This document shows, in pieces, positions 2,062-45,781 of a stretch of 64,000 nt of DNA. The translations under genes and the position numbers were made by a program. Origin of the DNA: an uncultured Poribacteria bacterium (GTDB lineage Bacteria > Poribacteria > WGA-4E > WGA-3G); NCBI GenBank assembly GCA_951828385.1, contig OX639973.1, forward strand, positions 6,488,845-6,552,844, read 5' to 3'. The notes beneath the pieces are model-generated. The model had not been told where the DNA came from. It saw only the letters and a program-made list of their open reading frames with translations, and did not search any database. Position 1 is the stretch's first letter. Each line of letters starts with the position of its first letter.

Positions 2062-2922
2062 TTATTTCTCTAACTGCTCTTTTTTCTTTTCAGGTGCCTT
2101 TTCTGTTTTCAAGGGTGCCTGAATCCATTTTTCAAATGCTGCTGTGTCCTCAAAAAATGAACGCACGAGGGCAAATTCAGCAGGTGTCGTAATCGCACAC
2201 CGTAGCAACCCTTCCGAAGAACCGTGTTTTTTTAGCCATTCACGCCATACATCGTGAAAAACCTCAGTAGACATCTGTGCTTCAAGGTTGGTGACCATCC
2301 CCATCTGTGTCAGCTCTGACATGTGCGAAAACAGTTCTGCTGCTGGATAGATTGCCATCAACGGTTCCATCAAGTGTTTGGTTTGGAATGCGATAAGTGC
2401 ATTCAGGTCATCAAGAGTGTTCGGCTCCTTTACCAACAGCACTCGGAATTTGAAGTAGTAGTCCGTGCAAATTGACAGTGCCTCCGCTTTTGTTTTTGGT
2501 GGTAATGCTTCTTTAAAAGAAAACAGCATAGCGGTTTTCTGCTTCGGGGTCGGCATTGCCTTAACATAAGCCGGAAAATCCTTATATTCCTGTCCAACTT
2601 CCGCTTTCAAATAGGTTAAGTACGGCGCGTTGGATAATATTGCGTCCAGCGTATCGGTGTGTTGAAGGAGTTGGTGCAGTAATTTCTCCTGTGTCTCGGT
2701 CAACGGTTTTCTGACTAACTTCTCCAATGCTTTTTTGCGCTTTTCGTGCTGCGCCATTCCATCTTCTACGTTCTTCGTTATTTTATCTACCAATTCATTT
2801 CCTGTCTCCGCTGCAGGTTCATTTTCTGCTGCGCTCTCAAGGGCGTTATTGAAGCAGAGAAAGAAAAACAATAGGAGTAGCGTAATGAGCTTCATGGCAG
2901 TGATATTTGTCCGGTGCCTCAC
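2062..2922 (-). CDS. Exported protein of unknown function, partner in sigma-propeller operon 1
   Basis: A 286-residue protein with a hydrophobic signal segment (MKLITLLLLFFFLCF, residues 10-24) and a mostly helical, charged body ending in a lysine- and glutamate-rich tail. The likely start is GTG at 2922, because GGAGG lies seven bases upstream and the codon overlaps the stop of 2919-4076 (GTGA), which indicates translational coupling. An ATG at 2895 is possible but has no ribosome site. I recognise no domain. It lies third in the operon headed by the sigma-propeller gene 4111-7131, so it is probably made under the same conditions and acts outside the cytoplasm. Confidence 0.75.
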   Translation of the reverse strand: MRHRTNITAMKLITLLLLFFFLCFNNALESAAENEPAAETGNELVDKITKNVEDGMAQHEKRKKALEKLVRKPLTETQEKLLHQLLQHTDTLDAILSNAPYLTYLKAEVGQEYKDFPAYVKAMPTPKQKTAMLFSFKEALPPKTKAEALSICTDYYFKFRVLLVKEPNTLDDLNALIAFQTKHLMEPLMAIYPAAELFSHMSELTQMGMVTNLEAQMSTEVFHDVWREWLKKHGSSEGLLRCAITTPAEFALVRSFFEDTAAFEKWIQAPLKTEKAPEKKKEQLEK

Positions 2923-4076
2923 GGTTGTACCTCCGGTGGTAAAGGTTGCGGACGGGTTTCGCGTGGATTGGACTTTGATGGCGGTACTCCCGTCGGTTGT
3001 TTAGTAAGCCATTCTTCTATTTCAGTCGATGAGTTAAAACGTTCCAAAAGATAGTTTGCTGCTTCTTTATCCGTTTCAAGGAGCTGCAACAGACCCGCAT
3101 CCGTCCCGTCTTGAGATAAGAATTCTCTGATAGATTTTATCCGCTCTACCGACATCGATGAAGCCAGTTCCGTTTGGAGTTTCTCTGTCGCAACCACGCC
3201 GTTTTCGTTTGAACGGGTAGATGGCGGCTCAGTTGATTCCGTAGTCGATGTCGTGACTTGCGGTGTTGGTGTCGGCGTTACCGCGTCTTGCGTTTCAACC
3301 TCTATAAGCGTTGGGAAAAATGTAGACATATCTTCTGGAACAGTATACTCGATGTTCTCTAATTCGCCGCCTACCAGAATTTGTTCTGTCATCCATTTCA
3401 TCTGTTGACCTATCTCGCCTTTAAAATTGGCAAGTGCCCAGAATTGGAAATCTTGCTCTTTCGCGATGCCCATCGTAACAGCCATCATTACCTTTTGAAA
3501 GTCGCCCGGTGTGTCAGCAACGATTTCATGGATGCGTTCCGCCATTTCCGCTTCATAATCCGCAGGCTCGCCTTCGGGAAAATGTTCTCGGAAAGCCTTT
3601 TGTGAAATTTCCGCCAAATCAATTTTCGGACCGTTTTCACCCGCAAAAATGTTCATGAATTCTTGGAGATTGAAATCGGGAAATTCGCCTTCCTCTAAAC
3701 CTTCCATTTTTCCCTTCATATACTCCATGCCGGCATCGATTCGGGCTGCCATCTCTGGACCCATAGCCTCTTTAAGGCGTTCAGGGTCTTTTGAACGTAG
3801 GGCTTCTTTGAGTTTGTCCATATCTATGTCTGACCCAAATGTTTCGGAGAGCTCCGCTTCGAGTTTCTCTACATCTATGTCTGACCCAAATGTTTCGGAA
3901 AGTGCATCAGTTTCCATAAGCGGGTTCAGTTCCTTGTCTGGGGATATCTCGGTGGGTTTGACACTTTCCGTTTCGACCGGTGCTTCGGTTTTCGGATGTG
4001 GTGCGCGTAAAAACGCCACCCCAATCAGAGAGATAAAGCACAATCCTATAATAATAGGAAACAAACGATTTTTCAT
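2919..4076 (-). CDS. Membrane-anchored protein of unknown function, partner in sigma-propeller operon 1
   Basis: A 385-residue protein with an N-terminal transmembrane anchor (about residues 5-24). An acidic segment carries a duplicated 17-residue unit built on LSETFGSDID. It is followed by a helical acidic domain, a low-complexity Thr/Ser/Pro stretch (TPTPTPQVTTSTTESTEPP) and a proline-rich end. It starts 34 bases after the sigma-propeller gene and overlaps the next gene, so the three are cotranscribed. The anchored N-terminus and linker-like T/S/P stretch suggest an envelope protein with an extended extracytoplasmic part. No known family was recognised. Confidence 0.75.
   Translation of the reverse strand: MKNRLFPIIIGLCFISLIGVAFLRAPHPKTEAPVETESVKPTEISPDKELNPLMETDALSETFGSDIDVEKLEAELSETFGSDIDMDKLKEALRSKDPERLKEAMGPEMAARIDAGMEYMKGKMEGLEEGEFPDFNLQEFMNIFAGENGPKIDLAEISQKAFREHFPEGEPADYEAEMAERIHEIVADTPGDFQKVMMAVTMGIAKEQDFQFWALANFKGEIGQQMKWMTEQILVGGELENIEYTVPEDMSTFFPTLIEVETQDAVTPTPTPQVTTSTTESTEPPSTRSNENGVVATEKLQTELASSMSVERIKSIREFLSQDGTDAGLLQLLETDKEAANYLLERFNSSTEIEEWLTKQPTGVPPSKSNPRETRPQPLPPEVQP
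3822..3899 (-). repeat. Internal coding duplication, two 27-bp copies 51 bp apart
   Basis: Identical 27-base stretches occur at 3822-3848 and 3873-3899. Both are in frame and encode the LSETFGSDID part of a 17-residue duplicated unit in the 385-residue protein. The identity at DNA level points to a recent in-frame duplication. Confidence 0.8.
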
Positions 4077-4110: not shown

Positions 4111-7100
4111 TCAATTATTTTTGGTTTCAAGCGAGACGTGAAACATCCCGCGTTGTTCAGTCGCGATATAAAGCCTGTTACCCTTGACAATGAGTGCGAT
4201 AACAGTATCAGGAACTTCCGGTGAAATCTGTTCCCATCTATTTCGGTTATCTAATTGATAGACCCCTTTATCACCGGCACCATAAACCGTTGTCCCTGAC
4301 ACAGCCATTCGGTCTATGACGGTGTGAGTGCCATCATTATTGGTTATTGCCTGCCAATGCTCACCGTCCACCGATGTCAAGACACCTGTGTCTGTCGCGA
4401 CATAGACTGCAGAACCACCAGAGACTATCTCGTTGAAACGCTCAAAGCGAAGTGGCAGATTAGATGTTAAGTCTTTCCATGTGTTTCCGGCATCAGGGGA
4501 TCGTAAGAGATGCCCATCACGTTTTCCGACGTAGACGGTTTCCTCTGAAACGGCTATTCGGAGCCCGCTGTCAAATGGATTTTCAACGGCGATTTGGAGC
4601 CCGCTGTCAGATGGATTGTCAGACGGTTGCGTGGTATCTATCAACCCAGTATCTGTCCATTCAGGATCTCCGCGTGTCCACCGGAAAAGCCGTTGCTTGT
4701 ATTCCACATAGAATGTATTGCCGCTGACTGCGAACCCATTCGGCGATAGTTCAAATTGGTTCTCAACATCTGTCTGCTGCTCTACATTTATAGAATCATG
4801 AGGTATGTCTTGCTTTGAGGCTATCGGCGATTCGGCATCTTGTGTCTGCGTCCGGATATCGTTCGCAAAAATCGGGATGCCTTGGATCGGCACAAGCATA
4901 TTATCATCTGCAGAAAAACGGAGAATACGCAATCGGTTTTCTTTAACTAAGTCTTTTGCGGCAACGTAGAGCACATCGCCAGAAACCGATAACTTCGGAA
5001 ACATTAACAGATTGGACTGATGTCCGTTCTCTGCGGGTTGCAGTGTGAATTCACTAGTATTGGGCCGAAGCGGTTCCCAAGAATCGCCACCATCAATGGA
5101 TTTGGAGACCCCTGTAGTGGTGCTCGTGTAAATCGCATTTTTGTCAGCGACTAAGTTAAATATCATTGTACCGACGATGCCTTTGGTAAATGGATGCCAC
5201 GATTTACCACCATCCGTTGAGCGTGTCAGTTCGAGAATCCCTGCTTTGATGAACGTGCTTTCATCTACTGTTACGGCAGGGGCCAGGCTTATCATCATTG
5301 AATTCATCATTGCTTTCATGTCGAATGTCTCTGCAAAAGTATCAAAACTGAGACCGAGGTCTGTCCATGTTTTTCCGGCATCCGTTGAGCGAAAATTGGT
5401 CATAAGGCCTAACGCTAAGAGCGTCTCTCCGGCTGCCAAAACTTTGACACCTGGTGAGATTTTCATCAAAGGCGAATCACTTGTAGGTGTTATCTCGGTC
5501 CATGAATCTCCTAAGTTGGTGGAGTGGAAAATTTCCCACGTGCTTGAATTGGCAGCTCCCATAATTTGCGCCGTATACGCCATCCTACCTTCAGGGGTCC
5601 TCAATTGCGTAAGGTCGGGACCTGTTCCTACATAGAGATGGTTTTTAGAGACAGCCAAGGAATGGATGGCATTAGTAGTTTGTATCGGTAATTTTTCCCA
5701 CATACCCGCCTGTATGCGGTAGAGTCCGTGATTTGTGCCGATGAACACTGTATTTTCAATAACAGCGATTGCAAAATTGAACATGTCTTCGACTTTATCT
5801 CCGAATGGAATCCATTGCTTACCAGCATCCGTAGATCGGAAAATCTGAGTTTCGAGGACAAGATAGAGTGCATCATCGGTTGCTACAAGTCCGGTAGCAT
5901 CTCCTTTTGGACGCTCACCGAGTACTTTCCAGTTCTCGCCTCTGTCTGTTGACGCAGACACTTCACGGGTAGAAGCCAGATAGAGCGTCCCATCTCGTTC
6001 AGCTATCTGGGTCCAACCACTCATCCTTATGGATGTATTGATGAGTGTCCATGCGGATGCATTAGGTGTCAATCTATAGATGCCAACTGGTGAAGCGGCG
6101 TATATGTCCCCTGTGCTGCTTGCATACAAGCTTGACACCATAGTACTCTCTGGACCGAGTGCTTGCGTCCACTGCTGCTGGGTTGACGGGCGCGTCTCTT
6201 TTTCTACCCGCGATGCACCAAGTGTAACAGGTTCCGAAAGTTGCGGGCCGGAGGCACTGCTCTTACCCGTGGTTTCAAAACGTCCCGCTTGGTTCCGTAA
6301 ATCCGGTTTCGCCTGTGTATCAAGCACTATCGGTGCGTCAATGATTTCAACGGTCGTTTCAGATACTGCGTCTATGTTGTACGGTCTCTGGAAGCGCGCG
6401 AGGTATTGAGAACCGACACCCATTATTAAGAAGATAAAGAGTGCTGTTGCGGCAGAAAGTGCCACCGGTACTAATGGCTTACTACCTGACGGGGCAACGG
6501 GTTTCAGACGCGAAACTTCGCGCATGATGTTCTCTGTCAGATGCGGCGTGATTTGAAAATGCTCCAAAGCCTCTCTGACTATCGGTTCCTCTTGCTTCAA
6601 ACGTTGCTGTGCCCGGCGGAGCCGACTCTTAATCGTATTCACGGAAACACCCAAAAACGCGCCAATCTCTGCAGCCGACATTTCACTGAAATAATGCAGT
6701 GTGATGACCGTCCGATCACTCTCTTGGAGGGTTGCGAGCAATTGTTTCACGACTTCACGTTTGGCTTCCCCAATTGTCCGCTCCTTCTCTTCAATGACAT
6801 ACTGAGAATACGTCGCTTTTTCTAACTGCGCGCTATCCGTTTCTTCAAGGGGTTGCGTCTGCAAACGCTTTTTACGTAGCCACATCTTACAGTTATTCGC
6901 GGCGATGACATAAAGCCAACCCGTGAAACGCTGAGGCTTCTTCAACGTTCCGAGTCTCTGGTACGCCTTCAGGAATGTATCCTGTGTAATCTCCTCAGCG
7001 ATATGGAAGTCCCCTATTTTCCGCCACACAAGCGCGTGAACCGGCTTTTGATATTTTTTCACGAGTTCACTGAAGGCACTATCATCGCCATCAAGGGTGC

Positions 7101-7131
7101 GGTGTATGAGTTCAACATCTACATTTTTCAT
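4111..7131 (-). CDS. Membrane-tethered ECF sigma factor fused to an extracytoplasmic beta-propeller (copy 1)
   Basis: 1006 residues. Residues about 8-85 are sigma region 2 (GDFHIAEEITQDTFLKAYQ, FTGWLYVIAAN). Residues about 126-180 are sigma region 4 with its helix-turn-helix (SAAEIGAFLGVSVNTIKSRL). One transmembrane helix covers about 221-240, followed by the linker IIDAPIVLDTQAKPDLRNQ (about 263-281). The rest is a propeller with at least seven Asp-box motifs, including STDRGENW, STDAGKQW, STNLGDSW, STDGGKSW and SPDAGNTW. ECF factors are usually about 200 residues and held by a separate anti-sigma factor. Here anchor and putative sensor are in the same chain, and no anti-sigma gene is nearby. 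The start has GGAGGTGATAGC in front. It heads an operon with 2919-4076, 2062-2922 and the IS-split gene. A likely role is self-contained envelope sensing and transcription control, which is inference. Confidence 0.85.
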   Translation of the reverse strand: MKNVDVELIHRTLDGDDSAFSELVKKYQKPVHALVWRKIGDFHIAEEITQDTFLKAYQRLGTLKKPQRFTGWLYVIAANNCKMWLRKKRLQTQPLEETDSAQLEKATYSQYVIEEKERTIGEAKREVVKQLLATLQESDRTVITLHYFSEMSAAEIGAFLGVSVNTIKSRLRRAQQRLKQEEPIVREALEHFQITPHLTENIMREVSRLKPVAPSGSKPLVPVALSAATALFIFLIMGVGSQYLARFQRPYNIDAVSETTVEIIDAPIVLDTQAKPDLRNQAGRFETTGKSSASGPQLSEPVTLGASRVEKETRPSTQQQWTQALGPESTMVSSLYASSTGDIYAASPVGIYRLTPNASAWTLINTSIRMSGWTQIAERDGTLYLASTREVSASTDRGENWKVLGERPKGDATGLVATDDALYLVLETQIFRSTDAGKQWIPFGDKVEDMFNFAIAVIENTVFIGTNHGLYRIQAGMWEKLPIQTTNAIHSLAVSKNHLYVGTGPDLTQLRTPEGRMAYTAQIMGAANSSTWEIFHSTNLGDSWTEITPTSDSPLMKISPGVKVLAAGETLLALGLMTNFRSTDAGKTWTDLGLSFDTFAETFDMKAMMNSMMISLAPAVTVDESTFIKAGILELTRSTDGGKSWHPFTKGIVGTMIFNLVADKNAIYTSTTTGVSKSIDGGDSWEPLRPNTSEFTLQPAENGHQSNLLMFPKLSVSGDVLYVAAKDLVKENRLRILRFSADDNMLVPIQGIPIFANDIRTQTQDAESPIASKQDIPHDSINVEQQTDVENQFELSPNGFAVSGNTFYVEYKQRLFRWTRGDPEWTDTGLIDTTQPSDNPSDSGLQIAVENPFDSGLRIAVSEETVYVGKRDGHLLRSPDAGNTWKDLTSNLPLRFERFNEIVSGGSAVYVATDTGVLTSVDGEHWQAITNNDGTHTVIDRMAVSGTTVYGAGDKGVYQLDNRNRWEQISPEVPDTVIALIVKGNRLYIATEQRGMFHVSLETKNN

Positions 7132-7157
7132 GCTATCACCTCCGATTGATTTATAAT

Positions 7158-7185
7158 GATGCGTATTAGGTGCAAAATGGGTGCA
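7158..7185 (-). promoter_or_regulatory. ECF-type promoter candidate C, upstream of sigma-propeller operon 1
   Basis: On the minus strand the sequence reads TATGCACCC, 17 bases, CATC, about 27 bases upstream of the ATG at 7131. The same layout (TATGCAACC-N17-TGTC or CGTC) precedes the other two sigma-propeller operons. ECF promoters typically have an AAC-containing -35 and a CGTC-like -10 at this spacing. This copy is the most degenerate of the three. Confidence 0.6.
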
Positions 7186-7283
7186 TAATTCTGATTATAA
7201 TCTGATACCATTTCTATTTCAATAGCCATGTGGATGGCGGGGGTGTAAATTTTTTGACGCGCGATGAATGGAAATGCGACCCT

Positions 7284-7380
7284 GTAGCATAGACTGTTAG
7301 TCTGTGGCAGGTATCCTCGTAGCATAGATTGTTAGTCTGTGGCAGGTATCCTCGTAGCATAGACTGTTAGTCTGTGTCCT
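7284..7380. repeat. Tandem 35-bp palindromic repeat, about 2.8 copies
   Basis: Units begin at 7284, 7319 and 7354, each starting GTAGCATAGA(C/T)TGTTAG and containing the hairpin AGACT-GTT-AGTCT. Related single copies occur at 25884 and 31497. The third unit is truncated. There are no spacers, so this is not CRISPR. It lies in the 653-bp gap between 7131 and 7785, which holds no gene I can support. Confidence 0.85.
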
Positions 7381-7424
7381 GTGAAGAACCCGTATTTCCC
7401 AATCCGCGAAATCCGTGAAAATCC

Positions 7425-7571
7425 GCCCCAGGCCGGTAGGTTCGGTTTGATGAAGTTTAAGAAAATATTTCGGTAATAAACGGGCAATAATGCACGTCGC
7501 ATTTGGGTGAGTACACCGTAAAATTGCCCTACTACAAACAGACGGGCTCGTAGTAGTGCGATTCATCGCAC
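7425..7571. repeat. Remnants of two dispersed intergenic repeat families
   Basis: The stretch from 7425 (CCAGGCCGGTAGGTTCGGTT, then TGATGAAG and, further on, AATAAACGGG) matches the element at 16401-16471. The stretch 7517-7571 (CCTACTACAAAC, then CGTAGTAGTGCGATTC and ATCGCAC) matches the core of the 123-bp element at 45821-45943. Both copies are incomplete here. They occupy the rest of the gap before 7785. Confidence 0.6.
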
Positions 7572-7784
7572 GTTCTGAAGCAATTTTAAGAAACAAATTT
7601 TAGGTTTTCACGAAGATTGGAAGAAGTGCTTGTGTTCGCTATCTTCCGCACTTCCACCCTTCCAACTTATCCGAAGATCAAAAACGTCCATTTAATATTG
7701 AAACTTGCTTAAGGGGGGATTAAGGGGAGTGTTTTTGCTTGGGTATTTCTGCGGGTTTCTTGTCGCTCGCGATCTTTTTATCCA

Positions 7785-8480
7785 TCAACGTAGTTCCTTC
7801 CATTCCGATGGAATCCTATAACCGTGTTCTGCCCAAGAGTCTACAAGCATATTCCACGTTTGGTCTGCTATATCTACCGGATCTGGCAGGAGGTGGCTTA
7901 ACTGTTCTGGGATATGGTCTTCGGATGCTTCTGAATAAATTGTTTTTCGGACATCGTTTAATAAAGCGCGCTGTTCTTCAAGCGGCATTTGATTCAACGT
8001 TGCTGCTATCATTTTTGAGGCCGCTTTCACTTGGGAGAGTGCGGCTTCTGATAACTGTATGGCACTGTCTATGGTTTCGTATGTTTCTTTTTCCATCATT
8101 TTAATTTTTTCGGACATGGAGATAGCTTCTTCGTGTGCGTGCTCGTGTTGTGTATCTCCAGGTTGAGTCCCTTTGACATCGTTTTGGTTTTCGATGCCAG
8201 TGTTGGACACATCAGAAACTGAGGCAGGGGAAGTGCCGTTGTCAATCTCAGTAACGGACGGTTCTATTGTTTCTTCAGGGGCTGAATGTACAGGATTGGT
8301 TCCTGCTGTCTGCTTCTTAGCGGCGGATGTATCCGTTGCTAATGGCGTTACACTGCGATATATCTTCTGTGGCTCAGCCCTCAGTATTTCTTGAGAAGGC
8401 CGATGATGTCCGAAATACCATAAAGCCGTTGCTACTATTAAGAAAAGTACGAGATAAGCGAGGACGGATAACTTTTTCAT
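7785..8480 (-). CDS. Membrane-anchored protein of unknown function, partner of sigma-propeller 2
   Basis: 231 residues with an N-terminal transmembrane anchor (LSVLAYLVLFLIVATALWYF, about 4-23). A long low-complexity Ser/Thr/Glu-rich stretch follows (to about 110), with a small histidine cluster (TQHEHAHEE). The C-terminal domain is helical (about 120-231). It starts 24 bases after the stop of the sigma-propeller gene 8505-11393 and is surely cotranscribed with it. The architecture (anchor, flexible stalk, small helical domain) resembles the other operon partners in form, not in sequence. Function unknown. Confidence 0.75.
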   Translation of the reverse strand: MKKLSVLAYLVLFLIVATALWYFGHHRPSQEILRAEPQKIYRSVTPLATDTSAAKKQTAGTNPVHSAPEETIEPSVTEIDNGTSPASVSDVSNTGIENQNDVKGTQPGDTQHEHAHEEAISMSEKIKMMEKETYETIDSAIQLSEAALSQVKAASKMIAATLNQMPLEEQRALLNDVRKTIYSEASEDHIPEQLSHLLPDPVDIADQTWNMLVDSWAEHGYRIPSEWKELR

Positions 8481-8504
8481 TTCAAATTTAGACTCCTTTT
8501 CCTA

Positions 8505-11393
8505 CTATTCTTTTTTAATCGAAATGCGGAACATCCCGCGCCGTTTCGTAACAATATAAGATTGATCACCATTAATCACAAGAGAAACAACACTATCTGG
8601 CACTTCTGGCAAGATTTTTTCCCATTCGGCGCGATGATTCAAGCGATAGCCCCCTTCATTGCTGGCACCATAAATTGTCTGGGTATCCACAGTGATTCGA
8701 TCAATGAGCGTGTGTATGCCTGCTTTATCGGTGATTGCGCGCCAATGCTCACCGTTTTCTGAAACCAAGACCCCCGCGTCCGTAGCAACATACACTGTTG
8801 AACCCGCAAAGGTTATATCATTGAAACGCTCAAAACGTAAGGGCAGACTTGAAGTCAAGTCTTTCCATGTGGTGCCACTATCGAACGATTGAAAAAGACT
8901 TCCACCGCGTTTCCCTGCGTAGACGGTTTCCTCAGAAACAGCAAGTCTCAGTTTTTTCATAAAGCCATTATTTTCGTCCTTGCTTTTGCCTTCATCTACC
9001 AGTCCGGTGTTAAACCATTCTGACTCACCGCGTTTCCATCTGAGAAGCTGCCGCCTATGTTCTATATAGAAGGTCTTGCCACTGACCGCAAAGGCACTGG
9101 GGGATATTTCATGCTCTATTAGATCCGCCCACGCCTTTGTATCTGTGATGGGAGGGGCTTCGCCAACAGCGGGTATCCCTTGGATAGGGACTAATACGTT
9201 TCCATTTTCAGAGAGACGACAGATGCGCGATTTATGCTCGGGAACTAAAGTCGCTCCGGCACCATAAAGTCCGCCGTTAGCAATTACTAATTTTGGGGAA
9301 ATCAGACGGTAGGCTTTTTCTACTGGTTTTAGCGTGAGTTCACCTGAATTCAACGGAAGATTTCTCCACGACGCACCGCCATCGATGGATTTCATAACAC
9401 CTTTGGCGTTGCTCGTGTAGATTGCATTTTTGAACCTTATTAAGTTGGATATTGAAACGTCTACTAACCCGTTCGTAAATGAGTGCCACGATTCACCACC
9501 ATCGGTTGAACGTGTCAATTCGATGGATCCGACCTTAAAGAAGGTATTTTCGTCTACTGCTGCAAGAGTCGATGCTGTTATATTGGTGTCAGATTCTGTC
9601 CATGTTGTGCCCCCGTCCGTTGAACGAAGGTTTATCACTCCAGATACCAGGACGGTATTTCCAGCTGCAAAGACTTCAGCGTTTGAAGGGATTTTCATCT
9701 TGATTGATTTGTTTCTCGGTGTTATATCAGTCCACGAATCTCCCAAATCCCTTGATCGGAAGACTTCCCATGTCCTTACATCGGAATCGAGGAGGTTACT
9801 CATAAGCGCATCCAGGTACGCCTGCCTGCCTTCCGGGGTTTCTAATTCGGAAGTGTCTTGCCCTGTTCCGACGTAAAGAGTATTTCCAGAGACAGACAAA
9901 GCGTGAATGGCTTTTGTGGTAAGCGGCAATTTTTCCCACGTTCCTGAAGACAAGCGGTAGAGTCCCCGGTTTGTCCCGATAAACACTGTATTTTCAACAG
10001 CAGCGATTGCCCTAATACCACTGTCTGCTATTTCGGAGTTCAGTAGCATCCACTGCTTACCGGCATTTGTAGACCGGAAAATACCTTCATCTCGAAGTGC
10101 GAGGTATAAGGCATCATCCATTACCACCAGACCAATCGCGCGCCCTTTTGGACGCTCGCCAAGTTTTATCCATGTCTCGCCTCTGTCTTTTGAAGCAAAC
10201 ACGCCATTGGAAAAAACAAGATAGAGTGTGTCGTTGCGTTCCACTATCAGTTTGCGGTAATTGTCTACTGAAGCATCTGGTGGAAGTGGGCTAATAAGCG
10301 TCCAGGCGGGTGCATCTGGTGCTAATCTGTAGATACCGATTTTTGAAACCGCATAGACATCCCCCCAGGAACTTGCTAATATGTTTGATACTGAACGCCC
10401 TTTTGCTGGACCGCTTACTTGTACCCACTGTTGGTTTGTTGAGAGGCGCGGTTCCTTTTCTACTTGCGCGGCGGCAAGCATAAGAGATTCTGAAACTTGC
10501 GGACCGACACTTTTACTTCTACCAATGCTATCGAAACGTCCGGCTTGGTTTCGTAAATCCGGTTTCGTTTGTGTATCAAAGACAATCGGAGCATCAATGA
10601 TTTCAACGGTGGCTTCTGATTGCGAGTCCAAGTTGTAGGGCTTCTGAAAATGGACAAGGTGTTCAGAACCGATACCGATTATCAGCAACATAAGGACCGC
10701 CGTTGCAGCGGAGACCGCCCACGGCACAATAGGGGGGCTGCTTGTCGGAGCAACCGGCTTAATATCAGCGACTTGCCGCATGATATTCTCTGCAAGGTTG
10801 GCAGGTAATTGGACGCTACCGAGCGTTTCGCGAATCATATTTTCTTCTCCCTTTAAACGGTTACGGGCGCGTTGGAGACGACTCTTAACGGTATTCGGGG
10901 ATACACCCAAGAATTCGCCAATCGCCTTGCATGACATTTCGCCGAGATAGTGAAGCGTCATAACCGTGCGTTCACTCTCCGGCAGTTTTTCAAGGAGGGC
11001 TTTGACAATTTCACGCTGATGTTCAGCAGTCTCGGCTTCACTGCGCTCAGATTCATAATTAGCATAAAACGATTTTTCGATTTCTTCTATTGGCGTGACT
11101 TCTATTGATTGGTGACGGATTGCCGGTTTGTTTCTTTGGATCCAATTAAGACAAAGGCGATTCGCAATCACATAAAGCCACCCATCAAAGAGTTTCGGGT
11201 TCTTTAGCGTTGAAAGCTTTTTATACACTTGGAGGAAAGCATCTTGCGTAATTTCTTCAGCAATGTGAAAATCCCCTATCTTCCGCCATATAAGCGCATG
11301 AACACGTCTTTGGTACTTTCGGACTAAGACGCTAAATGCCTCGTCTTCGCCTGACAAAATCCTGTGAATCAATTCGACATTATCTCTTACCAT
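8505..11393 (-). CDS. Membrane-tethered ECF sigma factor fused to an extracytoplasmic beta-propeller (copy 2)
   Basis: 962 residues with the same order as the copies at 4111 and 13484. Sigma region 2 is at about 8-88 and region 4 at about 128-182 (CKAIGEFLGVSPNTVKSRLQ). A transmembrane helix covers about 223-243, followed by the linker IIDAPIVFDTQTKPDLRNQ at about 265-283 and the propeller from about 325 to the end. The Asp boxes include SKDRGETW, STNAGKQW, SRDLGDSW, STDGGTTW, STDGGESW, SIDGGASW and SFDSGTTW. Region 4 and the following 30 residues are almost identical to copy 3, while the propellers differ more. This fits a shared promoter specificity with different sensing surfaces. GGAG precedes the ATG, and the ECF-type promoter lies about 70 bases upstream. 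The gene is followed at once by 7785-8480. Confidence 0.85.
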   Translation of the reverse strand: MVRDNVELIHRILSGEDEAFSVLVRKYQRRVHALIWRKIGDFHIAEEITQDAFLQVYKKLSTLKNPKLFDGWLYVIANRLCLNWIQRNKPAIRHQSIEVTPIEEIEKSFYANYESERSEAETAEHQREIVKALLEKLPESERTVMTLHYLGEMSCKAIGEFLGVSPNTVKSRLQRARNRLKGEENMIRETLGSVQLPANLAENIMRQVADIKPVAPTSSPPIVPWAVSAATAVLMLLIIGIGSEHLVHFQKPYNLDSQSEATVEIIDAPIVFDTQTKPDLRNQAGRFDSIGRSKSVGPQVSESLMLAAAQVEKEPRLSTNQQWVQVSGPAKGRSVSNILASSWGDVYAVSKIGIYRLAPDAPAWTLISPLPPDASVDNYRKLIVERNDTLYLVFSNGVFASKDRGETWIKLGERPKGRAIGLVVMDDALYLALRDEGIFRSTNAGKQWMLLNSEIADSGIRAIAAVENTVFIGTNRGLYRLSSGTWEKLPLTTKAIHALSVSGNTLYVGTGQDTSELETPEGRQAYLDALMSNLLDSDVRTWEVFRSRDLGDSWTDITPRNKSIKMKIPSNAEVFAAGNTVLVSGVINLRSTDGGTTWTESDTNITASTLAAVDENTFFKVGSIELTRSTDGGESWHSFTNGLVDVSISNLIRFKNAIYTSNAKGVMKSIDGGASWRNLPLNSGELTLKPVEKAYRLISPKLVIANGGLYGAGATLVPEHKSRICRLSENGNVLVPIQGIPAVGEAPPITDTKAWADLIEHEISPSAFAVSGKTFYIEHRRQLLRWKRGESEWFNTGLVDEGKSKDENNGFMKKLRLAVSEETVYAGKRGGSLFQSFDSGTTWKDLTSSLPLRFERFNDITFAGSTVYVATDAGVLVSENGEHWRAITDKAGIHTLIDRITVDTQTIYGASNEGGYRLNHRAEWEKILPEVPDSVVSLVINGDQSYIVTKRRGMFRISIKKE

Positions 11394-35043: not shown

Positions 35044-35210
35044 ATTGTGTTTTGGAAACTGGTATAAGTGCTAAGAAGTGCCCTTGTTATAGAATGGATT
35101 TGAGTCGACTGTCGTGCATTAGGTTATAATATTTTTCAGAAAAACTTGAAAACTGATTAAAAATATGTTATTATATATGTATAAATTTTAATTTGATAAG
35201 AGAGGCAGTC

Positions 35211-36380
35211 ATGCAAGATAATTCTTTTTTTGATGAATCTAAGGAACGGTCACAAGTCAAGACAAGAATTGTTGAAAAATACTTCTGGGCTTGGGCGAAA
35301 GTTATAATTTCAGCGGTTAAAAAAAGGAAAAAGAACAAAATCGGTTATGTAGATCTTTTTGCAGGTCGAGGTAGGTACGAAGACGGCACAGACTCCACCC
35401 CACTTCTTGTCCTGAAGAAAGCATCTGAAGATGACGACATACGTAATATGCTCGTTAGTGTCTTTAACGATATGAATCCTGAGCATGTTCAAGACCTTCG
35501 AGATGCGATTGACTCAAGTCCAGAGGTAAGTATGCTCAAGTGGAAACCCCGCGTTATAAACAGGGAAGTTAATGAAGAACTTGCTAAAGATTTCGAGTCT
35601 ATGAAAACAATACCAACTCTATTTTTCGTAGATCCGTTTGGGTACAAAGGATTGTCACGCCAATTGATTAGTTCTTTAATTAAAAACTGGGGATGTGATT
35701 GTATATTCTTTTTTAATTACAATCGCATCAGTATGGGCATTAATAATAAAGCTGTTGAGGGGCATATGGTTGCACTTTTTGGAAAAGAGCGAGTAGATGA
35801 GCTCCAAAATCTGCCGCCTATGAGATCATCCGACCGCGAGTTATTCATAATTGATTCAATATCCCAATCGCTGAAAGAAAAAGCAGGGCAATATGTTTTA
35901 CCATTTCGCTTCAAAGACGATCGTGGTACGCGTTCAAGCCACCATTTGATCTTCGTTTCTAAGCATAGAAAAGGCTATGAAATTATGAAAGAGATCATGG
36001 CGAAAGAAAGCACTAACTTAGATGAGGGTGTTCCTTCGTTTGAATATAATCCCGCGACCCACCATCAATCTTTTTTATTTCAGTACTCACGTCCACTTGA
36101 GGATTTGGCTGATATGTTAATGGAATATTTTGCCGGAAAAACAGTGACGGTGAAACAGATATTAGATCAGCACTATAATCGTTTCAGCGTTGGCACGCGA
36201 TATATTGAGAAGAGCTACAAAGAATGTCTTACCAAACTTGAAGTTGACGGAAAAATCCAAGCCGAACCACCAGCAAGTAAACGCCAAAAAAGAAAAGGAA
36301 ATGTTACATTTGGGCCAAGTGTCAAAGTAACATTCCCACCAAGGGAGGGCCCTCAAAATGGCGACCAAATCCAAAATTGA
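35211..36380 (+). CDS. tcmP: Three-Cys-motif partner protein TcmP
   Basis: 389 residues from the ATG at 35211 (AGAGG upstream). It matches the TcmP family, recognised from the N-terminal block and its constant neighbour. Two motifs look like a Rossmann methyltransferase: YVDLFAGRGRYEDG (SAM-binding motif I, D-x-F-A-G-x-G) and FFVDPFGYKGLS (position and form of a DPPY-like motif IV). The C-terminal 90 residues suggest a winged helix followed by a basic tail (PASKRQKRKG). The stop overlaps the start of the three-Cys protein by 23 bases. The function of the pair has not been established to my knowledge. Codon use and base composition look AT-richer than the flanking genes, consistent with acquisition. 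Confidence 0.85.
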   Translation: MQDNSFFDESKERSQVKTRIVEKYFWAWAKVIISAVKKRKKNKIGYVDLFAGRGRYEDGTDSTPLLVLKKASEDDDIRNMLVSVFNDMNPEHVQDLRDAIDSSPEVSMLKWKPRVINREVNEELAKDFESMKTIPTLFFVDPFGYKGLSRQLISSLIKNWGCDCIFFFNYNRISMGINNKAVEGHMVALFGKERVDELQNLPPMRSSDRELFIIDSISQSLKEKAGQYVLPFRFKDDRGTRSSHHLIFVSKHRKGYEIMKEIMAKESTNLDEGVPSFEYNPATHHQSFLFQYSRPLEDLADMLMEYFAGKTVTVKQILDQHYNRFSVGTRYIEKSYKECLTKLEVDGKIQAEPPASKRQKRKGNVTFGPSVKVTFPPREGPQNGDQIQN

Positions 36381-37116
36381 ATGGACACAATCAACTTGGA
36401 ATCCAGTTAGAGGCTGCACCCGCGTTTCTGAAGGATGTCGGTTCTGTTACGCCGAACGAATCGCAGCGAGGTTTTCAAAAAAGGGGTTGGCTTATGAAGG
36501 TCTTGCGAAAATGACTAAGGCGGGACCAAAATGGTCAAATGAGGTGAGGCTTGTTCGAGAACTGCTTGATGCACCGTTGAAATGGAAAAAACCTCAGTTG
36601 ATCTTTGTTAATTCCATGAGTGATTTATTCCATGAAGATGTTCCGTTAGATTTTATTCTGGATGTTTTTGACACGATGAGCAGAGCGGAACAGCATTATT
36701 TTCAAGTGCTTACGAAGCGATCAGAACATTTGGTTAAACTTAGCAGTGAAATACAATGGCCCGAAAATGTGTGGATGGGAGTCAGTGTTGAAAATCAAGA
36801 TTACACATTCCGCATTGACCATTTGCGAGAAACGGATGCTCATGTCAAATTTCTCTCTCTTGAACCATTGATCGGCGCACTTCCAAACCTTGATTTAACT
36901 CACATAGATTGGGTTATTGTTGGTGGAGAATCCGGTCCTCATGCGCGTCCTATGCAAGAGGAATGGGTAATTGACATTCGGGATCAATGCCAGCAAGCTG
37001 ATGTTCCCTTCTTCTTCAAACAGTGGGGCGGTCGTAATAAAAAGCGAAAGGGTAGAACTTTGCAGGGCCGGAAATGGAATGATTTCCCAATTTCCTATGT
37101 CGGTAATGGTGTATAA
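36358..37116 (+). CDS. Three-Cys-motif protein (phage Gp37/Gp68, DUF5131 family)
   Basis: 252 residues. The three cysteines Cys20, Cys27 and Cys30 (GCTRVSEGCRFCYAE) form C-x6-C-x2-C, similar to a radical-SAM or Fe-S cluster site. Further family blocks are WNPVRGC, FVNSMSDLFHEDVP, FQVLTKRSEHL, WMGVSVENQDY, FLSLEPLIG, VIVGGESGPHARPM and FFFKQWGG. GGGAGGG lies just upstream of the ATG, inside the end of tcmP, so translation is coupled. Members occur in phages and bacteria, commonly beside TcmP. A radical-SAM-like enzyme modifying a nucleic acid or protein with its methyltransferase-like partner is a plausible but unproven role. Confidence 0.88.
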   Translation: MATKSKIEWTQSTWNPVRGCTRVSEGCRFCYAERIAARFSKKGLAYEGLAKMTKAGPKWSNEVRLVRELLDAPLKWKKPQLIFVNSMSDLFHEDVPLDFILDVFDTMSRAEQHYFQVLTKRSEHLVKLSSEIQWPENVWMGVSVENQDYTFRIDHLRETDAHVKFLSLEPLIGALPNLDLTHIDWVIVGGESGPHARPMQEEWVIDIRDQCQQADVPFFFKQWGGRNKKRKGRTLQGRKWNDFPISYVGNGV

Positions 37117-39477: not shown

Positions 39478-40680
39478 ATGCATATACTCTGTGCCAACGT
39501 AGGAAGCACCTCGTTCAAATACCAAATTATTGATATGGAGACCACGACTTCTTTAGTCAAGGGAGGCGTGGAGCGCATCGGTAATTCACCGTCTGCCTTT
39601 ACGCATGCCGTGCCGGGGAAGCCTACCCGCGAAGGCGAAATTGATGCACCGACACATACGGCAGCAATCGCACACGCAATGGAGCTAATTACCGATGCCG
39701 AAGTCGGTTGCTTTGAGGACTTAGGACAATTGGACGGGGTTGGATTCAAAACGATTCTCGCTAAAGGCTATTGGCGTTCGGCACGGATTACCGAGGATGT
39801 GATCGCAGCACTGGAGGCATCCACGCCGCTCGCGCCGATGCATAATCCCGCTTACATCGCCTCTATCCGCGCCTTTCAAGAACTGCTACCGGCGACACCA
39901 CTCGTCGCAGTCTTTGAGACATGGTTCCACCAAACAATTCCAGATTACGCCGCCGAATTCGGGGTGCCTCGCTTCTGGGTAGAGCAACACGACATCCGTC
40001 GTTACGGCTATCACGGCGCGTCCCACCGCTATATCTCTGAACGCGTGCCGCAGCTGCTTGGACGGGAATCAGGAGAAGGGCTGCGCATTATCTCGTGTCA
40101 CCTCGGTGGCAGCTCATCCCTCTGTGCCATCAAAGACGGTGAATCTGTTGATACCTCAATGGGAACCTCTACGCAATACGGGATGATTCAGTCTACCCGT
40201 TGTGGTGAGTTAGATGCGTTTGCGGTGCTCTATATGCTCGACAAAGAAGGGGTCTCTACCGATGAGATTCGTCGTCAATTGATTGAGGATTCAGGATTAA
40301 AAGGTATCTCCGGCACGAGTGGCGATATGCGCGATGTAGAGGCAGCAATCGCAGCAGGCGATGATAATGCCCGTTTAGCACTCGATACTTACGTTTACGG
40401 TGTGAAGAAGTATATCGGCGCGTATATCGCCGCACTGGGTGGCGTGGATGTAATCGCTTTTGCTGGCGGCATCGGTGAAAAAAGTGCTACAACCCGCGCG
40501 AAGATTTGCGGTGGACTTGAGTGGTGCGGCATTCACTTGGATGCCGCGAAAAATGAGCAAGTGACCGGCGAGGCTGACCTCTCAGCACATAACAGCCGTG
40601 CTAAGATTTTGGTTGTCGCTACGAATGAGGAATTAATTGTGTCGCGTGAAACTGCCAGAGTTCTCAAAGCGGGTAGTTGA
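39478..40680 (+). CDS. Acetate/butyrate kinase-family protein with altered active site
   Basis: 400 residues of the acetokinase fold: Asn7 in NVGSTSFK, MHNP with His122, ETWFHQTIPDY, YGYHGASHRYIS with His179, CHLGGSSSLCAIKDG, DTSMG, TRCGELD with Arg241, ISGTSGDMR, FAGGIGEKS and ATNEELIV with Glu384. Numbering matches the Methanosarcina enzyme almost residue for residue. However, the GHRVVHGG block is GFKTILAKG, so Arg91 is Lys, and the catalytic Asp148 of FDTAFHQ is Glu147. Both residues are essential in studied acetate kinases. A different carboxylic substrate or a weakened enzyme is likely. No phosphotransacetylase lies nearby. Confidence 0.85.
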   Translation: MHILCANVGSTSFKYQIIDMETTTSLVKGGVERIGNSPSAFTHAVPGKPTREGEIDAPTHTAAIAHAMELITDAEVGCFEDLGQLDGVGFKTILAKGYWRSARITEDVIAALEASTPLAPMHNPAYIASIRAFQELLPATPLVAVFETWFHQTIPDYAAEFGVPRFWVEQHDIRRYGYHGASHRYISERVPQLLGRESGEGLRIISCHLGGSSSLCAIKDGESVDTSMGTSTQYGMIQSTRCGELDAFAVLYMLDKEGVSTDEIRRQLIEDSGLKGISGTSGDMRDVEAAIAAGDDNARLALDTYVYGVKKYIGAYIAALGGVDVIAFAGGIGEKSATTRAKICGGLEWCGIHLDAAKNEQVTGEADLSAHNSRAKILVVATNEELIVSRETARVLKAGS

Positions 40681-40704: not shown

Positions 40705-41499
40705 TTACATCAAGTATTCCCGTTCTCGGAAAATTCGGATAGCGAGCCACAGCAATCCTACCGTTAGAAGCAAAATTACGAGGAGTGCTACCCACGCTGG
40801 CGGCGGGGATGCTCCTAAAAAGTCATCTAATAAGCCCCGAGACAGCTTATAACGCGGAAATACACTCAAAAGGTAGTGTGATATAGAGAGCCTCTTGATT
40901 CCCATCTGCATGAATGGTGCTGCAGTAATACGTTCCCACCCCATCACAAACAACAATCCCCAGAGGACAGGGTGCTTGAACTTCGCTGCTAATGCGGCAG
41001 CAAGTGCCCCATACGCTAACAATGACAATGCCATTGATCCAGTATAGCGCAGACTCATGCCTATGTGATATAATATATTCTTATCGAGTTTTGAGTGTGT
41101 CGCGACAATACAGGTTAAAATCAGGTGGGATCCGCCTATAATAGCAAGCGTGCCGACAAGGTACGCTGCGAATTTACTCAGCAGAATTGTCGATTTGTGG
41201 AGCGGGCGCATCTGAAGATAGGTTAAGCCTTTACCCTCAATTTCATCGGAGATGATTGCGGTCCCGTAAAAAATCGCGCAAAGGTTCACCAAAAGTCCAT
41301 ACAGAATTAGCGTTATCTGTGGTATGAATCCGTTGACCGTTACCCTACCGCCCACCGTAAACCGGAATATGAGAGCGATAACAAGCGATAAAGCGCAGCC
41401 GATCAGAATCAGTACAGTTCGCCGGGTCCAGAACATTTGCCGCAATGTCACTTTGGAGAGGGCGAGATAGGAAGGAAATACATTCGCGTTGGTAAACAT
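40705..41499 (-). CDS. ABC-2 family transporter permease
   Basis: 264 residues with six hydrophobic segments (TVLILIGCALSLVIALIF, QITLILYGLLVNLCAIFYG, FAAYLVGTLAIIGGSHLI, MALSLLAYGALAAALA, VLWGLLFVMG, WVALLVILLLTVGLLWLAI). The cytoplasmic ISDEIEGKGLTYLQMRPLHKS after the second helix resembles NosY and the ABC-2 permeases that work with a separate ATPase. No ATPase gene adjoins it: it converges with the acetokinase and diverges from the PAP2 gene. The partner ATPase must be elsewhere. Confidence 0.8.
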   Translation of the reverse strand: MFTNANVFPSYLALSKVTLRQMFWTRRTVLILIGCALSLVIALIFRFTVGGRVTVNGFIPQITLILYGLLVNLCAIFYGTAIISDEIEGKGLTYLQMRPLHKSTILLSKFAAYLVGTLAIIGGSHLILTCIVATHSKLDKNILYHIGMSLRYTGSMALSLLAYGALAAALAAKFKHPVLWGLLFVMGWERITAAPFMQMGIKRLSISHYLLSVFPRYKLSRGLLDDFLGASPPPAWVALLVILLLTVGLLWLAIRIFREREYLM

Positions 41500-43969: not shown

Positions 43970-45781
43970 ATGCATCCACAAAGCAGCAAACCGCTCCTTG
44001 TTTACGATAATGACTGCGATTTTTGCCGATACTGGGTTGCCCAATGGCAACACATCACCGGCGATCGAATCGACTACGCGCCGTTCCAAGAAGTCGCTGC
44101 AGAATTCCCCGAAATACCACTTTCAGCGTTTGAGAACGCAGTCCAGTTAATCCTACAGAACAGCACAGTTTTGAGCGGTGCAGAGGCTGTTTTTCGTGCT
44201 TTGAATAACGGCTTACTTCTCTGGTGCTACTATCATCTGTTTGGGTTCAAGAGTGTGTCAGAGGGAGTCTACCGCTTTATTGCACTGCACCGTCCATTCT
44301 TCTCTACATTGACGCGCTGGTTCTGGGGAACACATACCGAGCGAACAACGTTCTATCTCTCGCGCTGGCTGTTTCTACGCGGACTCGGCTGTATCTATCT
44401 CATCGCCTTTCTATCTTTATGGGTACAGATTCACGGATTGATTGGGAGCAACGGAATTTTACCGGCAGAACAGTATTTAGCCGCTGTTCGTCAACAAATC
44501 GGAACCGAAGGCTACTACCTTCTGCCAACACTGTTTTGGTTGAACCCCTCAGATGCTTGCCTCCATTTCCTATGTGCTGGCGGTGTTGTGCTGTCTTTAA
44601 TCTTAATCGCAGGTTTCTTGCCGACGGCTACGCTCATCGGTTTATGGATGTTCTATCTGTCGCTTGTGGCAGTCGGTCAAGCCTTTCTTAGTTTCCAATG
44701 GGATGTACTGCTCTTAGAGGTGGGTCTTTTAGCAATATTTTTTGCACCGCTGCGAATCCGTGATGCGTTCACACGTGTGTCTGAAACTTCCGGTGCGTTC
44801 CTATGGCTCCTACGGTGGCTCTTATTCCGGTTAATGTTCGCCTCCGGATTCGTCAAACTTGTGAGTGATGCGGTGTGGCGAGACCTCACTGCGCTCAATT
44901 TCCACTATGAAACGCAGCCGTTACCGACATGGATCGGATGGTATGCGCATCAATTACCGGAGTGGCTGCACAAAATCTCGGTTATCGGTATGTTCGCCGT
45001 TGAACTCGTCATCCCGTTTCTCATTTTCGCACCACGACGGTTACGGACTATTGGATGTATCGGATTGATTGGACTACAAGTCCTGATCTTATTGACAGGA
45101 AACTACTGCTTTTTTAATTTACTGACAGTCGCGCTGTGCCTCCTGCTCATTGACGATGTAACGTGGAAAGGTCTACTATCCAAAAGATTCATGCCGAGGT
45201 TCCAACCCGCCGAAAACTCGCCTCACCGATACAGGCGTGTCTGTATCGCAGTCGTGGCAATGCTTCTCTTTGTGTTGAGTGGTGTCCGATTCGGCGGGCA
45301 ACTCTTTAGAGATGTACGATTTCCTGATGTCGCTTGGATTAGACCTTTTCGGAGTGTGAATACCTATGGACTCTTCGCAGATATGACCGAATCGCGTCCA
45401 GAAATTATTGTTGAAGGTAGCAACGACCGCATAACATGGGAAACCTACCGTTTCCGATGGAAACCCGGCGAACTCACAACTGCACCCAAATGGGTTGCAC
45501 CGCATCAACCGAGACTGGATTGGCAGATGTGGTTTGCAGCGCTTCGCGGGAGTTATCGAAATACGCCTTGGTTCCCCCATTTTATAGGGGCACTGCTACA
45601 AGGTAAACCTGAAGTCTTGCAGCTGCTGGCGGAAAATCCGTTTCCTGACACGCCGCCTCGATATGTTCGCGCAACGCTTTACGATTATCATTTTACCGAC
45701 ATCGCCACAAAACGCTCGGAAGGGACGTGGTGGTACCGAGAACGGAAAGGACTTTATTGCCCAGCAGTTTCACTCCGGTAG
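43970..45781 (+). CDS. DCC1 thiol-oxidoreductase domain fused to a lipase-maturation-factor-like membrane domain
   Basis: 603 residues. Residues about 8-110 are a DCC1 (DUF393) domain with the redox pair Cys16-x2-Cys19 in YDNDCDFCRYWV. Residues about 125-600 match lipase maturation factor (LMF1-like) proteins: six or more transmembrane helices, with LGCIYLIAFLSLWVQIHGLIG, SFQWDVLLLEVGLLAIFFAP, FRLMFASGFVKLVSDAVWRD and a soluble tail with ITWETYRFRWKPGE and HQPRLDWQMWF. LMF1 helps lipases fold in the animal ER. Bacterial versions are little studied. The fusion suggests disulfide handling coupled to folding of a secreted protein. Confidence 0.85.
   Translation: MHPQSSKPLLVYDNDCDFCRYWVAQWQHITGDRIDYAPFQEVAAEFPEIPLSAFENAVQLILQNSTVLSGAEAVFRALNNGLLLWCYYHLFGFKSVSEGVYRFIALHRPFFSTLTRWFWGTHTERTTFYLSRWLFLRGLGCIYLIAFLSLWVQIHGLIGSNGILPAEQYLAAVRQQIGTEGYYLLPTLFWLNPSDACLHFLCAGGVVLSLILIAGFLPTATLIGLWMFYLSLVAVGQAFLSFQWDVLLLEVGLLAIFFAPLRIRDAFTRVSETSGAFLWLLRWLLFRLMFASGFVKLVSDAVWRDLTALNFHYETQPLPTWIGWYAHQLPEWLHKISVIGMFAVELVIPFLIFAPRRLRTIGCIGLIGLQVLILLTGNYCFFNLLTVALCLLLIDDVTWKGLLSKRFMPRFQPAENSPHRYRRVCIAVVAMLLFVLSGVRFGGQLFRDVRFPDVAWIRPFRSVNTYGLFADMTESRPEIIVEGSNDRITWETYRFRWKPGELTTAPKWVAPHQPRLDWQMWFAALRGSYRNTPWFPHFIGALLQGKPEVLQLLAENPFPDTPPRYVRATLYDYHFTDIATKRSEGTWWYRERKGLYCPAVSLR

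Follow-up and report, generated by a model that had tools for sequence, protein, structure and literature searches.

An acetokinase subfamily with an apparently rebuilt active site in Poribacteria and in microcompartment loci of other phyla

In metabolosomes, the acyl phosphate exits the shell and a kinase outside converts it to the acid with formation of ATP (PMC6620236). In fucose/rhamnose compartments, lactaldehyde is converted through lactyl-CoA to lactate, a route preferred over that from propionaldehyde (PMC6620236), and a published scheme proceeds by way of lactyl-CoA, lactyl-phosphate, and L-lactate (PMC8857213). The signature enzyme of PVM loci is a class II aldolase, and their ancillary genes include those for DeoR and acetate kinase (PMC4207490). 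A kinase of these loci is already known, called acetate kinase (PMC4207490) or PvmG (PMC6620236); in the literature we found no characterized enzyme for the step from lactyl-phosphate to ATP in the fucose/rhamnose schemes. In the acetate kinase of Methanosarcina thermophila, Val93, Leu122, and Pro232 are acetate-binding determinants (PMC4390882).

Microcompartment (BMC) genes are also on record for Poribacteria. Satellite-like loci have been noted in this phylum (PMC4207490), and its BMCs have been described as having no similarity to those known before (PMC3909097). BMC shell and PduL genes are transcribed in Poribacteria, and degradation of 1,2-propanediol, with further Pdu homologues, has been proposed from single-cell genomes (PMC5087111).

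Gene and active site

The window analyzed here is a stretch of 64,000 nt (positions 6,488,845–6,552,844) of a poribacterial genome that consists of a single contig of 6,656,312 bases. The gene under study, a reading frame open from its ATG start (Table 1), encodes a protein that matches profile PF00871 over its entire length (357 bits, cut-off 22) and scores 352 bits against TIGR00016 (cut-off 293.4), placing it in the acetokinase family. The solved proteins nearest to it by sequence, the acetate kinases of Thermotoga maritima and M. thermophila, align with it end to end. An AlphaFold model (22 relatives as input, mean pLDDT 89.5) matches M. thermophila acetate kinase 1g99 with a TM score of 0.94 at 40% identity and thus has the acetate-kinase fold; pLDDT falls below 50 in the LOOP3 stretch 235–237. 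The best named matches come from sponge-associated Candidatus Poribacteria, at up to 97% identity. In a plasmid collection, 386 records match, all below 60% identity and at 42% for the best among the matches listed; four of these records were taken as references.

Table 1. Features of the variant kinase gene; motif coordinates were computed as ORF start + 3 x (residue - 1)
Feature	Position in window	Strand	Remarks
Variant acetokinase, PF00871, 400 aa	39478..40680	+	Predicted acyl-phosphate:ADP phosphotransferase of a putatively microcompartment-associated subfamily
GFKTILAKG codons, residues 89-97	39742..39768	+	In place of GHRVVHGG; K91 for Arg91
FETWFHQ motif, residues 146-152	39913..39933	+	E147 for Asp148
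CHLGGSSS motif, residues 207-214	40096..40119	+	PHOSPHATE2 loop; G211 S212 for Asn211 Gly212; subfamily-diagnostic
MGTSTQYGMIQSTRC, residues 228-242	40159..40203	+	Acetate-pocket P232T, LOOP3 G239S, R241 kept
GGIGEKS, residues 330-336	40465..40485	+	ADENOSINE loop; G331 kept, N335K

An earlier note on this DNA, made from the letters alone, had matched N7, H122, H179, R241, and E384 to Methanosarcina acetate kinase and had seen Lys and Glu in place of Arg91 and Asp148, and every one of these residues is where it was said to be. In M. thermophila numbering, in which H122, H179, E147, and A181 of the window kinase occupy positions H123, H180, D148, and T182, the protein retains S10, S12, K14, H208, D283, R285, and G331 together with N7, H123, H180, R241, and E384 of classical AckA. 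At three further positions characteristic of AckA, Arg91, Asp148, and Asn211, it has K, E, and G. The two replacements described as striking essential residues are therefore real, and they are a small part of a wider active-site set common to a multi-phylum subfamily. The set in the window kinase comprises H90F, R91K, V93I, L122M, D148E, F179Y, T182A, N211G, G212S, P232T, L233Q, M238Q, G239S, and N335K, and the HRVVHGG loop is shortened, with G95 gone. Beyond R91K and D148E, the changes H90F, T182A, N211G, G212S, L233Q, M238Q, G239S, and N335K, the missing G95, and the acetate-pocket changes V93I, L122M, and P232T fall at positions that vary little or not at all among the other acetokinases. 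The acetate-pocket residues Val93, Leu122, and Pro232, here I, M, and T, are variable across the variant group. Judged by alignment, then, the whole active site appears to be rebuilt, beyond two residues. R91K and D148E both preserve charge and, as a guess, may form a co-adapted set with G211 and S212 of the PHOSPHATE2 loop.

Charge conservation at positions 91 and 148 would also suit a functional acetate kinase, one that forms ATP with acetyl-phosphate coming from PduL or from some other source. The retained N7, H122, H179, R241, G331, and E384 agree with this alternative, as does the gene inventory: a search for an intact ackA elsewhere in the genome, advised in the earlier note, found none, the kinase being the single PF00871 gene. 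PduL-type enzymes, moreover, are able to use acetyl-CoA. Against an acetate kinase stands the loss of all three acetate-pocket determinants of PMC4390882. Changes at Asn211 or Gly239 in the M. thermophila enzyme, N211G not being among those made, reduce activity by a factor of 6 to 200 and give a higher Km for acetate (PMC4390882), and an Ala mutant of Arg91, as distinct from R91K, keeps 0.3% of activity in M. thermophila and 0.6% in P. gingivalis (PMC6461089). We regard an acetate kinase as unlikely, also in view of the genomes with two acetokinases described below.

The variant subfamily

We aligned 116 rows, 80 variant and 36 other, with identical sequences counted once and the others including six added references and two typed ones. 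F90, K91, E148, A182, G211, S212, and Q233 are present in 80/80 unique variant rows, most of which come from one phylum, so that these counts are of non-independent events. Among the 36 other rows, R91 is found in 34, D148 in all, and N211 in 30. Since every row of the group carries the signature while the others keep R91, D148, and N211 at these frequencies, a chance origin of the substitutions is excluded. The window kinase has the complete signature (FK / FE / HGA / HLGGSSS / Q233). Rows were matches aligned over at least 350 residues in one set or at least 330 in the other; split or partial copies (L047, L048, L110, L111) and partial Nitrosospira matches (L050–L052) were left out. One variant row is truncated before position 384, and the divergent member L107 is counted among the 80.

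The earlier note had proposed a tree to see if the Lys/Glu pair defines a clade, and it does. The variant group, including the window kinase, forms one side of a branch with support of 100/100 in a 55-row tree. Support is 100/99 in a 45-row tree computed without the signature columns, to which E. coli AckA, E. coli TdcD, and Klebsiella PduW had been added (50 rows were requested and five names merged with identical sequences). Rooting was by midpoint alone, and in the 45-row tree some long branches come together, E. coli AckA lying with TdcD.

The gene is under purifying selection: dN/dS is 0.041–0.050 in three pairs with the window kinase, a further pair with L041 being saturated, and 0.076–0.114 in three other variant pairs. 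No row of the variant group departs from H180, R241, N7, or G331, and E384 is present in every untruncated row. A fixed core in 80/80 rows, a dN/dS of ~0.05, and a single tree group argue that the signature is not decay. The replacement of several positions important in acetate kinase catalysis might point to a catalytically dead or regulatory pseudo-kinase; the invariant residues and the selection make this very improbable, and true degeneration takes another form, exemplified by L068 and L086, which lost both R91 and R241. A pseudogene is likewise ruled out by dN/dS and the invariant catalytic residues, an assembly or frameshift error by identical motifs in many separate genomes, and a lineage-private oddity by the extension of the group to other phyla.

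Two observations concern divergent copies. L068 and L086 (G026:C363 and G025:C57) have Cys at both R91 and R241 in frames open over ~400 residues, and are, by sequence, likely to be nonfunctional copies of the other acetokinase. L107 (positions 2708–3970; G017:C876) is far more divergent, at 38% identity, and has HLGGSSS, with the D283/R285 adenosine motif absent (GGNLPKI); genome G017 holds two other acetokinase places besides.

A PF00871 gene is present in 81/84 Poribacteria genomes and the variant kinase, identified by a DNA pattern for HLGGSSS, in 80/84. The variant is the only acetokinase in 63 of these and accompanies another in 17; one genome (G002) has only the other acetokinase and three (G032, G063, G064) have none. 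Genomes with both argue for separate roles of the two proteins, which counts against the variant being an ordinary acetate kinase. Beyond the phylum, 8 of 302 sampled genomes, from six families, carry the variant. Nine had matched the pattern, and G222, a genome with no acetokinase match, was removed. A reversed-pattern control gave one match in 386 genomes, and a second pattern match in G051 (C710) does not lie at a kinase place. The signature was read directly in 16 chosen places outside the phylum, among the best-scoring; the pattern covers the rest and misses departing members.

Full-text literature searches found no paper describing this active-site divergence. Two points appear to be novel: the active site of a clade that spans several phyla and has members in PVM loci is both different and fixed, and this clade is carried throughout the Poribacteria, most of which have no other acetokinase.

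Microcompartment genes

In five of the eight genomes outside Poribacteria, the variant kinase lies among BMC genes of the fucose/rhamnose (PVM) kind. Locus L143 (G355, minus strand) encodes, in order, DeoR, PduL (PF06130), BMC-H (PF00936), the variant kinase, a 172-residue protein, aldehyde dehydrogenase (PF00171), EutN, a 246-residue protein, EutN, and class II aldolase (PF00596), which is the content given for PVM loci in PMC4207490. L135 (G218) repeats this layout by homology. BMC-H, aldehyde dehydrogenase, and L-fucose isomerase stand beside the kinase in L134 (G127); L136 (G227) has EutN by Pfam and homologues of PduL, shell proteins, and aldehyde dehydrogenase; and in L129 (G364), class II aldolase adjoins the kinase and EutN homologues are present. 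The other three loci, L128, L130, and L131, have no BMC gene among the neighbors compared, which counts against a microcompartment role. In L128, a gene for an AMP-binding acyl-CoA synthetase (6589–8046) lies upstream of the kinase on the same strand, and in L130 a phosphoribosyl pyrophosphate synthetase gene (8436–9398) lies downstream.

PduL occurs in all eight of these genomes, versus 42/294 of the other genomes outside the phylum. The association has a naive p of 3.4e-7, or 2.7e-5 when the comparison is restricted to the 165 genomes in which an acetokinase matched, kinship being ignored in both. Within Poribacteria, PduL is present in 80/84 genomes and Pta in 8/84; families f1 and f2 combined have the variant in 57/60, PduL in 60/60, and Pta in 0/60. 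The variant occurs without PduL in G003, G015, and G017, and PduL without the variant in G032, G063, and G064. These exceptions, all draft assemblies, count against a PduL partnership.

The window genome contains PduL, a CoA-acylating aldehyde dehydrogenase, and shell genes. Its one PduL gene, at 4,572,278, adjoins a BMC-H gene. The aldehyde dehydrogenase at 6,220,990, beside another BMC-H gene, shares 39% identity with its counterpart in L143 and scores 570 bits against NF011927 (cut-off 403). Three EutN genes lie at 1,257,284, 1,257,601, and 2,262,387. With PduL, dehydrogenase, EutN, and kinase at separate loci, the metabolosome parts are present but dispersed. A profile search found no PF01515 Pta anywhere in the genome, which bears out the earlier remark that none is adjacent to the kinase; that absence is uninformative because the partner is probably PduL, encoded ~2 Mb away. 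Two of the EutN genes (L161:5103–8886, at 1.254–1.258 Mb) come directly after genes for a GAF histidine kinase and for a response regulator of the sigma-54 type, which suggests that shell expression is regulated.

Unlike in the PVM-type loci, the kinase of the window has an ABC-2 permease, PAP2, DegT, and others as neighbors, with no BMC locus around it. None of the variant loci examined in Poribacteria has a BMC query gene beside the kinase, which counts against the explanation we favor below. The one BMC match near a poribacterial acetokinase, in L065, is at the locus of the other acetokinase. Across 125 loci compared, no gene qualified as a conserved partner of the kinase in a poribacterial operon, and the genes next to it in distant members show no relationship. 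The commonest neighbor, in 48/125 loci, has the position and orientation of the convergent gene for an ABC-2 membrane protein that follows the kinase (window 40705–41499), and a functional link is not evident. Elsewhere in the window, genes for a three-Cys-motif partner TcmP and a DUF5131 protein (radical SAM mobile pair type; 35193–37116) are likely a mobile gene pair, and 43970–45781 encodes a homologue of bacterial lipase maturation factors that has LMF1 and LMF1_C domains and, at its N-terminus, a DCC1-like thiol-disulfide domain.

The class II aldolase that makes lactaldehyde in PVM loci is nearly absent from the window genome, where PF00596 gives one partial match of 39 bits against strong matches in L143 and L129; this may count against the explanation we favor below. 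The PduL and shell genes of the window genome would also suit a propionyl-phosphate kinase of a 1,2-propanediol pathway. That pathway has been proposed, and a PduW homologue named, from poribacterial single-cell genomes (PMC5087111; cf. Jahn et al. 2016 on a BMC-A region with PduP, PduW, and PduQ homologues). Diol dehydratase PF02286 is found in 0/84 Poribacteria genomes, a weak objection because control genomes gave no match either. The window kinase does not group with Klebsiella PduW or E. coli TdcD in the 45-row tree, and it scores 273 bits against a cut-off of 580 for the propionate kinase model NF009045. A propionate kinase of this 1,2-propanediol pathway seems unlikely to us. The PduW homologue named for the single-cell genomes may, we presume, be the variant kinase gene itself.

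One further neighbor, encoded ~37 bases downstream of a variant kinase (L096:3056–4744; G017:C721), depends on thiamine diphosphate and is of the acetolactate synthase / 2-hydroxyacyl-CoA lyase type. Chemistry on 2-hydroxyacyl-CoA would fit a link to lactyl-CoA. Sulfoacetaldehyde acetyltransferase (Xsc), considered as a source of acetyl-phosphate, was dropped, the L096 enzyme scoring 212 bits against a cut-off of 676.

Proposed function and comparison with known systems

We propose that the window kinase is probably an active enzyme of acetokinase fold that performs the last, ATP-forming step of a BMC aldehyde pathway. In such a pathway, CoA-acylating aldehyde dehydrogenase would convert the aldehyde to acyl-CoA, PduL would exchange CoA for phosphate, and the kinase would transfer the phosphoryl group of the acyl phosphate to ADP, running toward ATP. 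Lactyl-phosphate (2-hydroxypropionyl-phosphate, from L-lactaldehyde) would be the most likely substrate and propionyl-phosphate the next. A kinase for lactyl- or a similar acyl phosphate is suggested by the presence of the clade in fucose/rhamnose loci, the changed pocket, and the conserved phosphoryl-transfer residues. We are less sure of this for Poribacteria. The earlier suggestion of an enzyme for another carboxylate or a sugar acid holds up in its first part, another acid being the best reading; the neighbors of relatives favor a BMC acyl phosphate, lactyl or propionyl, over a sugar acid. Tentatively, and with somewhat less confidence than in the pathway step, the whole clade may be a lactate kinase with a rebuilt acyl pocket and PHOSPHATE2 and LOOP3 loops, which in Poribacteria would serve a scattered microcompartment and would mostly have replaced acetate kinase.

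Automatic annotation groups the variant genes with acetate/propionate kinases, and so suggests that acetate is formed by sponge symbionts and wherever a genome encodes fucose/rhamnose compartments. Should the clade use lactyl- or propionyl-phosphate instead, such annotations mislead, and there is a candidate enzyme for ATP formation in the PVM compartment. The variant is also a natural test of the joint replacement of R91, D148, and N211 in one selected enzyme.

Among the known systems, butyrate kinase (Buk) is a distant fold relative of the window kinase (TM 0.64–0.67), with 17–19% identity in the structural match and profile scores of 90 bits (cut-off 222) and 72 bits (cut-off 289). TdcD and PduW belong to the same family, and PduW likewise serves a BMC pathway, adjoining pdu genes; unlike the variant, both retain Arg91 and Asp148, and the tree places them outside the variant clade. 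The PvmG kinase of fucose/rhamnose loci (PMC6620236), compared through locus content rather than a published sequence, has its counterpart in the variant signature of the PVM-content loci L143 and L135 and of the related BMC loci L134, L136, and L129, whereas in Poribacteria the variant gene is unlinked from BMC genes and class II aldolase is nearly missing. With AckA (M. thermophila 1g99/1tuy and E. coli AckA), the variant shares the fold, a full-length alignment, and N7, H123, H180, H208, R241, G331, and E384; it differs in R91K, D148E, N211G, G212S, T182A, and L233Q, in its acetate pocket and shorter HRVVHGG loop, and in forming a clade of its own.
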